A stretch of DNA of 40,548 bases from Bacilli bacterium. GTDB taxonomy: Bacteria > Bacillota_I > Bacilli_A > RF39 > UBA660. The DNA lies in assembly GCA_022798795.1 (NCBI GenBank), contig JAAWNF010000005.1, positions 1 to 40,548 on the forward strand, written 5' to 3'. The notes under the pieces were generated by a model that saw only the letters and a list, made by a program, of their open reading frames with translations, had not been told where the DNA came from and searched no databases. This document shows positions 24,619-29,179 of this stretch, one piece after another (the first letter of the stretch is position 1; each line of letters begins with the position of its first letter). The translations under genes and the position numbers were made by a program.

Positions 24619-25698
24619 ATGGAAAATAATAATCATAAAAGAGTTTATTTGAGAAAGGATGGACGATACTTTATTAAATATAAGAAAGGAATCAATCAAA
24701 ATGGAAAAACAGAGTATGGATTTATTTATGCCAAAAGTCCAGAAGAGGTATTAGAAAAGTATAAGAGCACATTGTCAAAAATATCTACAATTGATAAATC
24801 CTTATTTAGTGGTGATATATATCATTGGCTTAAAAGTGTTAAAATATCTTGTAAAAAATCATCTTATTCTAATTATGAATATATGGTATATGCACATCTT
24901 ATACCAACATTTGGAAAGTATAAGAGAAAACAAATTAATAAAAATATTATTAATGAATTTACAGAAAAAATGTTAAATCGAGGAATGGCTCCAAAAACAG
25001 TAAAGGATATATTGGTTATATTAAAACAAATTTTAAATTATCATAATATGAATATTTGTGTGACAATGCCAAAGGTTCCTAAAAAGGAAATTCAAATACT
25101 TACAAAAGAACATCAATTATTGTTAGAACAAAGATTAAGTCATTGTATAGCAGAAGAAGATATCGGTGTATTTTTATGTTTGTATACAGGTATTAGAATT
25201 GGTGAATTATGTGGTCTAAAGTGGGAAAACATTGATTTAGAGAATAATATTATTCGAATTGAAAAAACTTTAATACGGGTTAAAAATGATGATAAAAATA
25301 AAAAATCTAAAACGGTTGTAATATTAGATGACCCAAAATCTGCTTCTTCGATAAGAAACATTCCGATTCCAACCTTTTTGGTTTCCAAGTTGAATACTTT
25401 AAAAAAAGAAGAATCATGTTTTTTTTTAACAGGTACCAAAAATTTTATTGAACCAAGAAGTTATACAAATCATTATAAAAATATTATGAAATCACTAAAT
25501 ATAGATGAATATAATTTTCATGCATTAAGACATACATTTGCAACTAGATGTATAGAAAAAGGCTGTGACCCAAAAACTTTAAGTGAAATTCTTGGCCATT
25601 CAAATGTAAAAATTACATTAGATAGATATGTTCATCCAAGTTTTGATAACAAAGTTAGATTGATGAATAATTTAAATCCTATGTGTCATTTTAATTAA
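24619..25698 (+). CDS. Tyrosine recombinase (integrase/invertase)
   Basis: A 359-residue phage-integrase-family recombinase. Order: AP2-like arm-binding N-terminus (about 8-50), SAM-like core-binding domain (about 62-145), catalytic domain with Arg193 (TGIRIGELCGLKW), a lysine near 240, His301-x-x-Arg304 (HALRHTFATR), His327 (LGHSNV) and nucleophile Tyr337 (TLDRYVHPS). It makes covalent 3'-phosphotyrosine intermediates at paired core sites with short spacers. It lies 46 bp before the first of two inverted-repeat-bounded promoter segments, so a DNA invertase role is inferred. The arm-binding domain is more usual in integrases of mobile elements, so it may derive from one. Start follows CGAGAGGAG. 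Confidence 0.9.
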   Translation: MENNNHKRVYLRKDGRYFIKYKKGINQNGKTEYGFIYAKSPEEVLEKYKSTLSKISTIDKSLFSGDIYHWLKSVKISCKKSSYSNYEYMVYAHLIPTFGKYKRKQINKNIINEFTEKMLNRGMAPKTVKDILVILKQILNYHNMNICVTMPKVPKKEIQILTKEHQLLLEQRLSHCIAEEDIGVFLCLYTGIRIGELCGLKWENIDLENNIIRIEKTLIRVKNDDKNKKSKTVVILDDPKSASSIRNIPIPTFLVSKLNTLKKEESCFFLTGTKNFIEPRSYTNHYKNIMKSLNIDEYNFHALRHTFATRCIEKGCDPKTLSEILGHSNVKITLDRYVHPSFDNKVRLMNNLNPMCHFN

Positions 25699-25703
25699 AA
25701 GGA

Positions 25704-25730
25704 ATTGGTTCATTATGAATCAATTTTTTT
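25704..25730 (+). terminator. Terminator of the recombinase gene
   Basis: ATTGGTTC-type arm (25704-25713) pairs with ATGAATCAAT (25715-25724) before seven T. It separates the recombinase from the invertible segment that follows. Confidence 0.7.
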
Positions 25731-25744
25731 ATAAAATAAAATCC

Positions 25745-25761
25745 CAAAGCTTTTCACTTTG
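25745..25761 (+). repeat. Left inverted repeat of segment 1
   Basis: CAAAG-CTTTTCA-CTTTG; flanking arm bases extend the internal symmetry to 10 bp with one mismatch. It is the exact reverse complement of 25899-25915. Confidence 0.85.
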
Positions 25762-25798
25762 AGATTAAAAGACTTGTTGCATTCACAACTTAGACGTT

Positions 25799-25827
25799 AT
25801 TTTATTATAAAAAATAATATTTGTCAA
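25799..25827 (-). promoter_or_regulatory. Leftward promoter inside invertible segment 1
   Basis: On the minus strand, TTGACA (25822-25827), 17-bp spacer and TAAAAT (25799-25804). It points toward the recombinase terminator, away from the 25939 gene. After inversion it would face that gene with the start of transcription about 30 bp before the right repeat. Confidence 0.7.
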
Positions 25828-25898
25828 ATTTAACCATTTTTAAATAGTAGTCATTATTTTTAAAACATTTATATTTTCTTTTTTTATCAGAATTTTCA

Positions 25899-25915
25899 CA
25901 AAGTGAAAAGCTTTG
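25899..25915 (-). repeat. Right inverted repeat of segment 1
   Basis: CAAAG-TGAAAAG-CTTTG on the plus strand, with perfect 10-bp arms. It ends 23 bp before the start codon of the 25939 gene. Confidence 0.85.
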
Positions 25916-25938
25916 TGAAATTTAAGGGGGAATTATAA

Positions 25939-27072
25939 ATGGAAAAGACAACAAAAAAATATGTGGAGTATTTATATCCTGGTTTTATTGTATCAGAAAG
26001 TAGTAGTATGGAAATTGAACACAGTGACCCAATGAAAGTGGAAGTGAAAGAACATGTAATTGGGTTTCGATTCTATGAAAAAGATTTTATATATTCTGAT
26101 GGACAACAATTTGAGGGACAGATAAAGAATATGACAAATTGGTTTTATATTGGAAAAAGGCTTACTTTAGCCGAAGTGAAAAGTCGTTTTAATGGAATGC
26201 CAAAATATAAAACTTTAATTGATAATATGGAATGTAATGAAATATCATCTGTATGTATGACTGAATATGGTAATTTTATGCCAATGGAAAAAGAGGATAT
26301 TACATTAAATGAATATGTGACTGAACATGGTAAAGAAGCCAATGCTTTAAAAATGTTTCAAGCATTGAAAAAACATTTAGGAAAAAGTGTTTCTTATCGG
26401 GGATGGTGGTATGGAGTAGCTCAAAATGAAACAGGAATATTAAAAGATGTTAATTTTTTTACAAATGTAGAAATTGGTTGTCATGGAATACCATTTGTTG
26501 GATATGGTTCTGCTATTTCATCTATTATCTTGGATGAAACAGGAGAAGAATTATACTCTAATCCACATATTGAATATGGATATGATAGAAGAAGCCCAGA
26601 AAAAATTGAAGAATCAAGAAGAATGTTTTTTGGAGATACAATTGTGGATAAACAGAGAAGTCGTAGAATGAAAGCAGAAGCTATTAGAAAGCAAAAACAA
26701 GAACAAGCTGATTTAGAGGCTAAGAAAAAGAAATATATATTTATGAGAGAGGGGCTAGCTTTTGTTAAAAGTGAAGAGGCAGAAAATTGGATGCAATATG
26801 TAGATAATAACACAAATGATGCCTATTCTTGTTGTATTGTAGAAGCCACTTTATTATGCTTGAAACAATTACAAGAAGGGGCTACTTGTGAAGTGGTAGA
26901 AAAAGTGTATGTCGAAATGGGATTAAGTGGATATATGGCTGGAGCAGTTTCTAGCATGATTGCTCGCTTTAGTACAAGAGGAAGTGAATTTAAACAATAC
27001 TGGAATAAAAAATTTGGTATTTCAGGAGAAGAAAAAGGTACTGTAAATCCAGCTATATTAGTTTTATCATAA
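25939..27072 (+). CDS. Unrecognised 377-residue protein under switch 1
   Basis: I do not recognise a family. No signal peptide or membrane helix is seen. The N-terminal half (YVEYLYPGFIVSES, GFRFYEKDFIYSDGQQFEG, NWFYIGKRLTLAEVKSRF) looks beta-rich; a basic coiled-coil-like stretch (RSRRMKAEAIRKQKQEQADLE, about 233-262) follows, then a helical C-terminus with two adjacent cysteines (YSCCIVEATLLCLKQL). AAGGGGG precedes the start. The only credible promoter nearby is the inverted one in segment 1, so the gene should be silent in the assembled orientation. A cytoplasmic effector or regulator is possible but unsupported. Confidence 0.7.
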   Translation: MEKTTKKYVEYLYPGFIVSESSSMEIEHSDPMKVEVKEHVIGFRFYEKDFIYSDGQQFEGQIKNMTNWFYIGKRLTLAEVKSRFNGMPKYKTLIDNMECNEISSVCMTEYGNFMPMEKEDITLNEYVTEHGKEANALKMFQALKKHLGKSVSYRGWWYGVAQNETGILKDVNFFTNVEIGCHGIPFVGYGSAISSIILDETGEELYSNPHIEYGYDRRSPEKIEESRRMFFGDTIVDKQRSRRMKAEAIRKQKQEQADLEAKKKKYIFMREGLAFVKSEEAENWMQYVDNNTNDAYSCCIVEATLLCLKQLQEGATCEVVEKVYVEMGLSGYMAGAVSSMIARFSTRGSEFKQYWNKKFGISGEEKGTVNPAILVLS

Positions 27073-27078
27073 AAAATA

Positions 27079-27116
27079 AAAAACTCACAAAGTGTTTTTC
27101 TTTGAGAGTTTTTTTT
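27079..27116 (+). terminator. Terminator of the 25939 gene built on a recombinase-like core site
   Basis: AAACTC-A-CAAAG (to 27092), 7-nt loop TGTTTTT, CTTTG-A-GAG (27100-27108), then T residues. The CAAAG-N7-CTTTG core is the same as in the invertible segments but with a different spacer. Confidence 0.7.
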
Positions 27117-27121
27117 CTTAT

Positions 27122-27138
27122 AGTAAAAGACTTTATGA
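27122..27138 (-). repeat. Left inverted repeat of segment 2
   Basis: Exact reverse complement of 27259-27275. Spacer TAAAAGA on the plus strand. Confidence 0.85.
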
Positions 27139-27157
27139 TTTTCCTTGAGTGCTTCTT

Positions 27158-27185
27158 ATATTATCACTTTTTTTATTTTTGTCAA
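27158..27185 (-). promoter_or_regulatory. Leftward promoter inside invertible segment 2
   Basis: On the minus strand, TTGACA (27180-27185), 16-bp spacer and TAATAT (27158-27163). It faces the terminator of the 25939 gene, away from the 27303-28145 pair. Inversion would turn it toward them. Confidence 0.7.
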
Positions 27186-27258
27186 ATTTTGTTATAAATG
27201 AATTTTTAAAAGTCAAAAATGGGAATAATTATTTATATGCTAATCCTTAAAAAAGATT

Positions 27259-27275
27259 TCATAAAGTCTTTTACT
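27259..27275 (+). repeat. Right inverted repeat of segment 2
   Basis: TCATAAAG-TCTTTTA then CT; flanked by TTGAGAA, giving arms ATAAAG / CTTTGAG. It ends 27 bp before the start of the 27303 gene. Confidence 0.85.
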
Positions 27276-27302
27276 TTGAGAATTGTTTAAGGGGGTTGGA
27301 TT

Positions 27303-28139
27303 ATGAGTCAGGAAAGAAATTTTAAAGAAAATGAACGAAAGAGGTTAGAACAAAAAAAATTTTTAATTCAGATGAAAAAAGAAATGAATGATTTAGAAAA
27401 CAAAATAAAATTTTCAAGATTTTTAAATTTAAAAATTGCCACTGTAAGAAATTTAAAAATATCATTACGTGCTATGCAGTTAGTTGCACCTTATGTATTG
27501 ACAGCTGGGTTAATAGCAGGTGGATTTAAGTTGGTTGGAGGTTGTCCATTCTATCGTGATGTGCGACAACAAAATTTGAATATAATGAAAGAATTTGATA
27601 ATTTAGGAAATATCAGATATGAAGAACAATATAGTGAATATTCTGGTGCTTCAAATATATTATATTTTTATGGAAAATGGGAAAAATCAAATGATGGTTT
27701 TTACACTAGAACTGTGGAAAAGTATAAGCTAAAAGAATTGACAGAAGAAGAAATCATAGAATTATTTGGGAAAGAGAAAATGACTTTACAAGATATATTG
27801 GGTTCTCCTCTTTCTTCATTTCGAGAATCTAATAATAATGTTGCTGATGAAGATATAGAAAAAGATAATTATTTTCAAGCAATTATTTACCAAGAAAATA
27901 AAGAAGATTATATTTTAGTGAGGGAATCTGTTTCTGATAATATTTTAATCACCATATTATATATTTGTATTACTGCTCTAGCAGAACTTTTGCCATTATA
28001 TTTTAGAACTGAACTTTCAAGTTTTGATTTTGGAAATTGCGTATCAAGTATTAAAGAAAGATATCAACCAGTTGATATTCCAACTTTAACCAAAAAATTA
28101 AGAATCAAAAGGGAAAATTATGATAGGTTAACGAGGTAA
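27303..28139 (+). CDS. Unrecognised two-helix membrane protein under switch 2
   Basis: A 278-residue protein. A charged coiled-coil-like N-terminus (1-45) leads to one membrane helix (about 58-80, LVAPYVLTAGLIAGGFKLVGG), a domain of about 130 residues beginning CPFYRDVRQ, and a second helix (about 212-234, LITILYICITALAELLPLYF), with a short basic cytoplasmic tail. With two helices the middle domain would be outside the cell. No family recognised. AAGGGGGTTGG precedes the start. Five bases separate it from the amidoligase gene, so the two are almost certainly cotranscribed, and the only promoter candidate is the inverted one in segment 2. Confidence 0.7.
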   Translation: MSQERNFKENERKRLEQKKFLIQMKKEMNDLENKIKFSRFLNLKIATVRNLKISLRAMQLVAPYVLTAGLIAGGFKLVGGCPFYRDVRQQNLNIMKEFDNLGNIRYEEQYSEYSGASNILYFYGKWEKSNDGFYTRTVEKYKLKELTEEEIIELFGKEKMTLQDILGSPLSSFRESNNNVADEDIEKDNYFQAIIYQENKEDYILVRESVSDNILITILYICITALAELLPLYFRTELSSFDFGNCVSSIKERYQPVDIPTLTKKLRIKRENYDRLTR

Positions 28140-28144
28140 TTGGT

Positions 28145-29179
28145 ATGCTAGGAAATATTAGAAAAACAAATGAAATCGTAGATGCACCTATTTTTAAATT
28201 TATAAAACCTGGAGGAAATGATTCTTTATCTGATATGAGTGGAATCGATTTACAAGATTTATTATATTATGTAGAAAATTATTATTTAGAATTGCGAAAT
28301 CGTTTAGGATTTGATGATAAAGTTACTTTTGGATTAGAACTAGAATTTGAAAAAGCGTTTAAAAAACGAATTGAACAGAAATTGGAAGAATATCAGTTAG
28401 ATGATTCTTGGCGATTAAGGGGAGATGGCTCTTTATGTAGAGGTGCAGAAATTAATTCTCCTATATTAACAGATGCATCTGATTCTTGGTGTCAATTAAA
28501 AACGGTTTGTCAAATTGTTCAGCAACATGCATCAATTGATAAAAGTTCAGGTGGACATATTCACATAGGGACTCAAGTGTTAGGAAATAAAACAGAATCC
28601 TGGAAGAACTTTATCAAGCTATGGTCTGTATATGAAAATATTATTTATCGGTTTGTATATGGAGATTATTTAAATGCAAGGTCTAGTATGTTAAAGTATG
28701 CAAGACCATTAGCAAAGCAATTTTGGAGCGACTATCAAGAGATGTTGGAATGTGATTCATTAACTTTAAGGGGGATTGTTAGTAAAATTTCTCATGAAAG
28801 ATATCAAGCTGTAAATTTTAATAACGTGAGTGATTTTGATAGATTTCAATCTGAAAATACGATTGAATTTAGATGTCCTAATGGAACTTTAGAACCTGTT
28901 ATTTGGCAAAATAATGTTAATTTATTTGTTCATTTATTGCAGTATTCTAAAAGTGCTAGATATGATGATGACATGGTTCAAAGAAGAAGAATAATAAATA
29001 AAAATGATTATTCAAGTTTGACTTTTTATGGTGAAATATATTTACAGCAGGCTTTAGAATTGTGTGATATGATTTTTACAAATAATTTTGATAAGGTATA
29101 TTTTTTAAGACAGTATCTAAAATCTTTTGAAATTGGAAATAAAGAATTGGCAAAACCTAAATTGTTTGTGAAAAAATAA
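28145..29179 (+). CDS. Amidoligase-family enzyme (COOH-NH2 ligase) under switch 2
   Basis: A 344-residue protein of the putative amidoligase family (PF12224-like, glutamine-synthetase/GCS fold). Motifs in order: FGLELEFE (62-69), WRLRGDGSLCRGAEINSP (about 89-106), SGGHIHIG (135-142), and EFRCPNGTLEP (241-251). Family members are predicted to form amide bonds with ATP, attaching amino acids or peptides to proteins, glycans or other metabolites. Paired with a membrane protein and placed behind an apparent phase switch, it may modify the cell surface; that is inference. AACGAGGTAATT precedes the start. A terminator follows. Confidence 0.8.
   Translation: MLGNIRKTNEIVDAPIFKFIKPGGNDSLSDMSGIDLQDLLYYVENYYLELRNRLGFDDKVTFGLELEFEKAFKKRIEQKLEEYQLDDSWRLRGDGSLCRGAEINSPILTDASDSWCQLKTVCQIVQQHASIDKSSGGHIHIGTQVLGNKTESWKNFIKLWSVYENIIYRFVYGDYLNARSSMLKYARPLAKQFWSDYQEMLECDSLTLRGIVSKISHERYQAVNFNNVSDFDRFQSENTIEFRCPNGTLEPVIWQNNVNLFVHLLQYSKSARYDDDMVQRRRIINKNDYSSLTFYGEIYLQQALELCDMIFTNNFDKVYFLRQYLKSFEIGNKELAKPKLFVKK

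Follow-up and report, generated by a model that had tools for sequence, protein, structure and literature searches.

The window, a stretch of 40,548 nucleotides that constitutes contig C20 of a 1.36-Mb Bacilli assembly in 91 contigs, encodes a 359-aa tyrosine recombinase (24619-25698, plus strand) and, downstream, a 377-aa protein (25939-27072, plus strand), separated by a short intergenic segment. The recombinase gene is intact and its product gives Pfam matches to Phage_integrase (5.6e-27) and to a SAM-like core-binding domain. Residues R193, H301, R304, H327 and Y337, which do not vary among 11 homologs, constitute the R...H-x-x-R...H...Y catalytic set which, together with the integrase fold, places the protein among the tyrosine recombinases. 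The solved structures nearest to its catalytic domain are entries 6emy/6en0, an "Int protein" that we take to be the Tn1549 integrase. The gene is followed by a terminator-like hairpin, a stem and then a T run (25699-25729, plus strand, -10.3 kcal/mol).

An inverted repeat bounds the intergenic segment, hereafter switch 1. Its coordinates in the preliminary description are correct to the base, CAAAGCTTTTCACTTTG at 25745-25761 being the exact reverse complement of 25899-25915. In the right copy, TTTCACAAAG-TGAAAAG-CTTTGTGAAA, a 7-nt spacer lies between two perfect 10-bp arms, and in the left copy, AATCCCAAAG-CTTTTCA-CTTTGAGATT, the arms have one mismatch; the two spacers match at 7/7 positions when inverted vs 0/7 when direct, all as previously claimed. 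Exact 17-bp inverted repeats spaced by 60-300 nt occur twice in the 40.5-kb window, namely here and at a second switch described below, and not once in any of 60 dinucleotide shuffles of the window. Ortholog comparison led to the site consensus CNNAAAG-N7-CTTTNNG, under which the putative left and right recombination sites extend over 25743-25763 (CCCAAAG-CTTTTCA-CTTTGAG) and 25897-25917 (CACAAAG-TGAAAAG-CTTTGTG), respectively.

Between these sites, a minus-strand promoter, TTGACA (25827-25822)-17-TAAAAT (25804-25799), is present as reported earlier; it agrees with the consensus at 11/12 positions and faces away from the 25939 gene, an orientation we call OFF. Orthologs retain the -35 element and show TAAAAT or TAGAAT as the -10 element. 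The segment hence has the layout of an inverton, an intergenic promoter segment with inverted repeats at both ends. In silico inversion moves the two promoter elements to 25833-25861 and the predicted start to ~25868, which leaves 28 nt to the right site (the earlier estimate was ~30) and 71 nt to the ATG at 25939. The preliminary description also had the OFF-state RNA running back into the recombinase terminator. The outward promoter stands, but the far end of this transcript has to be revised: the left site and its T-rich outer flank (AAAATCCC, kept in 5 species) make up a minus-strand hairpin resembling a terminator (25740-25766), so that outward RNA should end before the recombinase terminator.

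Conservation within switch 1 is uneven across the 5 species, the promoter-proximal half being strongly conserved while the other half drifts, with the exception of an invariant AGTCA box (25849-25854) upstream of the promoter. Equivalent AGTCA/AGACT boxes occur ~20-40 nt upstream of the -35 element in L103, L106 and L081, and the box of switch 3 is a AGACTNNNNNNGTCT-like palindrome both in this genome and in G005; such boxes may be accessory sites, recognized by the N-terminal domain of the recombinase or by an activator. Just past the predicted start site lies a small minus-strand hairpin, GTTGN6CAAC (25776-25789), in a block mostly invariant across the 5 species, which after inversion would belong to the leader of the ON transcript. 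The 25939 gene is preceded by the ribosome-binding site AAGGGGG (25924-25930, plus strand), whose AGGGGG is invariant in 5 species. In the predicted fold of the ON leader, a conserved CTTTTAAT stretch pairs with part of this ribosome-binding site, and one may speculate that this pairing could modulate translation of the 25939 gene.

Promoter, GTTGN6CAAC hairpin and terminator-like hairpin form a compact, conserved transcription unit, and could be read as such: the minus-strand promoter would produce a small RNA of ~50 nt that stops at the hairpin of the left site, with the repeats acting as terminators or RNA pairing elements instead of recombination sites. The same unit would, however, also be the leader of an ON transcript, and the small-RNA explanation leaves the matching right site without a role; we return to it below.

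Further switches and the genes they precede

At least four switches of the same type are found in this genome. Switch 2 (27118-27280) has the same type of sites, on the left CTTATAG-TAAAAGA-CTTTATG (27118-27138) and on the right CATAAAG-TCTTTTA-CTTTGAG (27260-27280), and its promoter TTGACA-16-TAATAT (27158-27185, minus strand) is in the OFF orientation; G003 and G005 harbor orthologs, and G002 the left part. A site-like element at 27088-27104 was not counted, as it lies within the terminator hairpin that follows the 25939 gene and its spacer pairs with no site.

The other two switches are found at contig ends. Switch 3, located between genes for a 200-aa lipoprotein-like protein and a 348-aa protein, is split exactly at a contig boundary, with C19 ending inside it (L081) and C43 starting at its right site (L083 1-21); from G005, where the region is a single contig, we infer that C19 adjoins C43. 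Part of switch 4 is found where C51 begins (L084 1-230), before an AAA_5 ATPase and DUF7192 gene pair. The C51 start carries odd GC-rich sequence, possibly chimeric. Contig ends thus coincide with two of the four switches, an effect expected of a mixed population and only suggestive of one. Contig breaks inside switches also occur in G002, where we rejected mixed orientations as the cause because they are explained by the end of a repeated element that has 17 matches in the G002 genome. This element end abuts or lies inside two G002 switch promoter segments (L101 1-54, L102 1-52, L042 end, L048), the L048 occurrence being near a contig start, and a switch segment of G291 contains similar sequence.

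The predicted switch-controlled genes of this genome are mutually unrelated: the 377-aa protein with its weakly Tad4-like end, an amidoligase operon, the AAA_5 ATPase and DUF7192 pair, and a protein with a weak match to DUF5037. The C-terminus of the 377-aa protein, predicted to be under switch 1, weakly resembles Tad4 (Pfam 1.3e-4, under the cut-off) and phrog_9822 (1.5e-5), and structure prediction for three orthologs was of low confidence (pLDDT 57). Switch 2 would control a gene for a 278-aa protein (27303-28139, plus strand), which gave no Pfam match and in which hydrophobic stretches can be seen by eye, in a predicted operon with an amidoligase-family gene (28145-29179, plus strand; Amidoligase_2 2.3e-14). 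Searching phage records by tblastn returned no relatives of the 377-aa protein or of the amidoligase, and a comparison of the switch proteins with defence systems gave no convincing match. In three genus members, the block from recombinase to amidoligase is flanked by genes for a DUF2207 protein and a trmB-like methyltransferase.

In relatives, the genes behind switches encode a Fic protein, sigma-70-like proteins, metallophosphoesterases and TPR proteins and, by inspection, an acetyltransferase followed by a transporter-like gene. The sigma-70-like proteins are encoded directly behind switches in two genera (L051 7412-8941, L108 1784-3163); such a switch would act as a regulator of other genes.

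Spacers, recombinase and orientation

We collected 22 site pairs from eleven genomes, representing 16 different N7 spacers. Within a pair, the left spacer equals the right one when inverted in 22/22 cases and when direct in 0/22, a count that is inflated for those loci that were chosen as inverted repeats. Partner shuffling gave a mean of 1.9 perfect matches and a maximum of 8 in 20,000 trials. At five new loci, the arms alone, with N7 left free, sufficed to locate both sites, and the spacers still matched at 7/7 positions.

The inverted arrangement bears on whether the sites could be the attL and attR attachment sites of a small integrative element with its integrase. The recombinase does resemble phage and transposon integrases, but flanking attachment sites are direct repeats, which would have to bracket the integrase, whereas every pair here is inverted and the recombinase lies outside the sites of switch 1. 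Moreover, the pairs stand on one side of the gene, measure ~157-176 bp from end to end, and are also present at unlinked loci that have no integrase; an integrative element is barely conceivable.

Spacers differ between species and change at both sites together, while the outer arms of the sites vary independently. For switch 1, both sites read CTTTTCA here and TTTTTCA in G001, G002, G003 and G005; for switch 2, the spacer is TAAAAGA here vs TAAAATA in G003 and G005. Such coordinated change restricted to the spacer is predicted by continued recombination, or by selection for it. Conservative recombinases exchange strands inside a short stretch of sequence identity, and for lambda integrase the overlap region measures 7 bp from one exchange point to the other (PMC8371274). 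Among four genomes with four switches each, 0/24 within-genome pairs share a spacer, several of them differing by a single base.

Site pairs and recombinase also occur together. Over 291 genomes of the family, strict site pairs are present in 6/10 genomes whose recombinase reaches at least 50% identity vs 3/281 others (Fisher 2e-8), and a reversed control pattern had a match in 1/291 genomes. Among the three exceptions, the G115 pair looks like a chance occurrence, G173 has a perfect site pair near a contig end, and G124 (L126 3470-3940) has an upstream recombinase pseudogene with frameshifts and an internal deletion. In G124, the promoter faces tandem genes homologous to that of the 278-aa protein, together with an amidoligase gene, the ON orientation, and the site spacers have diverged, matching at only 5/7 positions. 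This locus has the appearance of a natural locked switch. The only genus member without the recombinase, G004, is 71% complete and yielded no site pair.

Both orientations are found, for switch 3 orthologs between sister species and for cassette homologs among genera, in comparisons where each species is one metagenome-assembled genome and orientation differences are hence between species. Switch 3 is OFF here vs ON in the sister species G003 (L104) and G005 (L106), and the C19 end aligns with their switch 3 at scores of 85/84 inverted and 18/17 direct. Among cassette homologs from other genera, those of G088, G059 and G173 (the last by eye) are ON, as is one of the two in G008. Switch 2 is OFF in every genus member where it is readable, and switch 4 is OFF in G003 and G005. 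No clear promoter orientation was seen in 3/22 segments (G008_a, G001_C2 and G001_C6). The small-RNA explanation accounts neither for spacers that covary between free arms, nor for the opposite orientations of switch 3, nor for the co-occurrence with the recombinase, and we consider it very improbable.

Switch 1 itself was seen OFF only, in 5/5 genus members carrying it (this genome and four orthologs) and in its cassette homolog in G174, from another genus, and its ON junction was found neither in the assembly of this genome nor in viral contigs. Uniform orientation and an assembly free of the ON junction are what one would expect if switch 1 were a former switch now effectively locked OFF, or one whose flipping is rare enough to make the locus fixed in practice. 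Against this, its spacer changed at both sites together in this lineage, the recombinase keeps all its catalytic residues, and spacers did diverge where the recombinase is broken, in G124; a locked switch is in our view unlikely, if less so than the other alternatives.

We therefore return to an invertible promoter, which is the reading supported by spacer identity in 22/22 pairs, the opposite orientations of switch 3, recombinase co-occurrence and spacer decay in G124. Judged from sequence comparison, 25743-25917 is very probably a phase-variation switch that works by reversible promoter inversion and at present stands OFF. The adjacent recombinase would drive it, and probably acts on at least three further switches in this genome as well. 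We infer from these patterns that the recombinase is the enzyme, that switch 1 continues to flip and that transcription follows its orientation. In this scheme, the recombinase (24619-25698) would bind both CNNAAAG-N7-CTTTNNG sites, and strand exchange across the identical 7-bp spacers would invert ~170 bp. In the OFF state, the promoter would point toward the recombinase and yield a short transcript ending at the left-site hairpin; in the ON state, transcription would start ~28 bp before the right site and read across it into the 25939 gene, which has a strong ribosome-binding site. Recombinase-driven flipping could thus produce a mixture of cells with the 25939 gene switched on and cells with it switched off.

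The same enzyme would work switch 2 and at least two switches on other contigs, the spacer proper to each keeping them separate. The two further recombinase matches in this genome are both weak (E ~1e-9 and ~1e-7), and one enzyme serving all four switches is thus the simplest reading. We lean, with some reserve, toward an arrangement in which one recombinase runs at least four unlinked switches through shared arms, the private 7-nt spacer of each serving as an address that prevents cross-switch exchange. Matched natural spacers and a lineage with a dead recombinase and drifted spacers would make this a test case for how switches are kept from cross-recombining.

Relation to known systems

Our literature search, which covered part of the field, returned no description of this recombinase/site family, of its per-switch spacers or of its occurrence in this Bacilli family, and no paper linking RF39-type bacteria to phase variation. 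In surveys, short-segment inversions were common in Clostridia and nearly absent in Bacilli, with one signature-positive Bacilli sample (PMC5903667), and "Bacillus-like" Firmicutes had a median of 0 invertons per genome (PMC11892184). The several conserved switches described here, in an uncultured Bacilli family, indicate that these bacteria too have established phase variation, and offer a defined enzyme-site pair testable in E. coli.

The class of mechanism is already known, since invertible promoters with a multi-target recombinase are found in Clostridioides difficile, Bacteroides and Mycoplasma penetrans. Mpi of Bacteroides is a serine recombinase. Mpi and others act globally on many dispersed invertible promoters (PMC2268961, PMC4747536), a likeness to the single recombinase with multiple dispersed promoters proposed here, but Mpi uses other sites and its targets are capsule and surface genes. 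M. penetrans, a low-GC relative of Firmicutes, also has one promoter inversion per gene, with many separate inversions at mpl (P35) as summarized in PMC2268961, citing Horino et al. 2003; going by that summary, the mpl genes are one lipoprotein family, whereas the genes behind the switches here are unrelated. The Tn1549/Tn916-type integrases (6emy, 6en0), nearest solved relatives of the catalytic domain, move a transposon, whereas the present enzyme is encoded at a conserved chromosomal location next to sites that are inverted rather than direct.

A close parallel in organization is C. difficile RecV, which acts on several unlinked invertible switches, namely flg/Cdi4, cwpV/Cdi1, cmr, Cdi2 and Cdi5 (PMC8844915, PMC5903667). 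Both systems combine short promoter or regulator segments between inverted repeats with one recombinase for several unlinked switches. C. difficile belongs to a different class of bacteria. The claim made here is that the present enzyme would work like RecV, a likeness of action and not of identity. The repeats of the C. difficile switches are mostly unrelated, those of Cdi2 and Cdi5 being identical (PMC5903667), whereas here a common arm consensus surrounds a 7-nt spacer private to each switch, and this combination is the less usual feature of the system.
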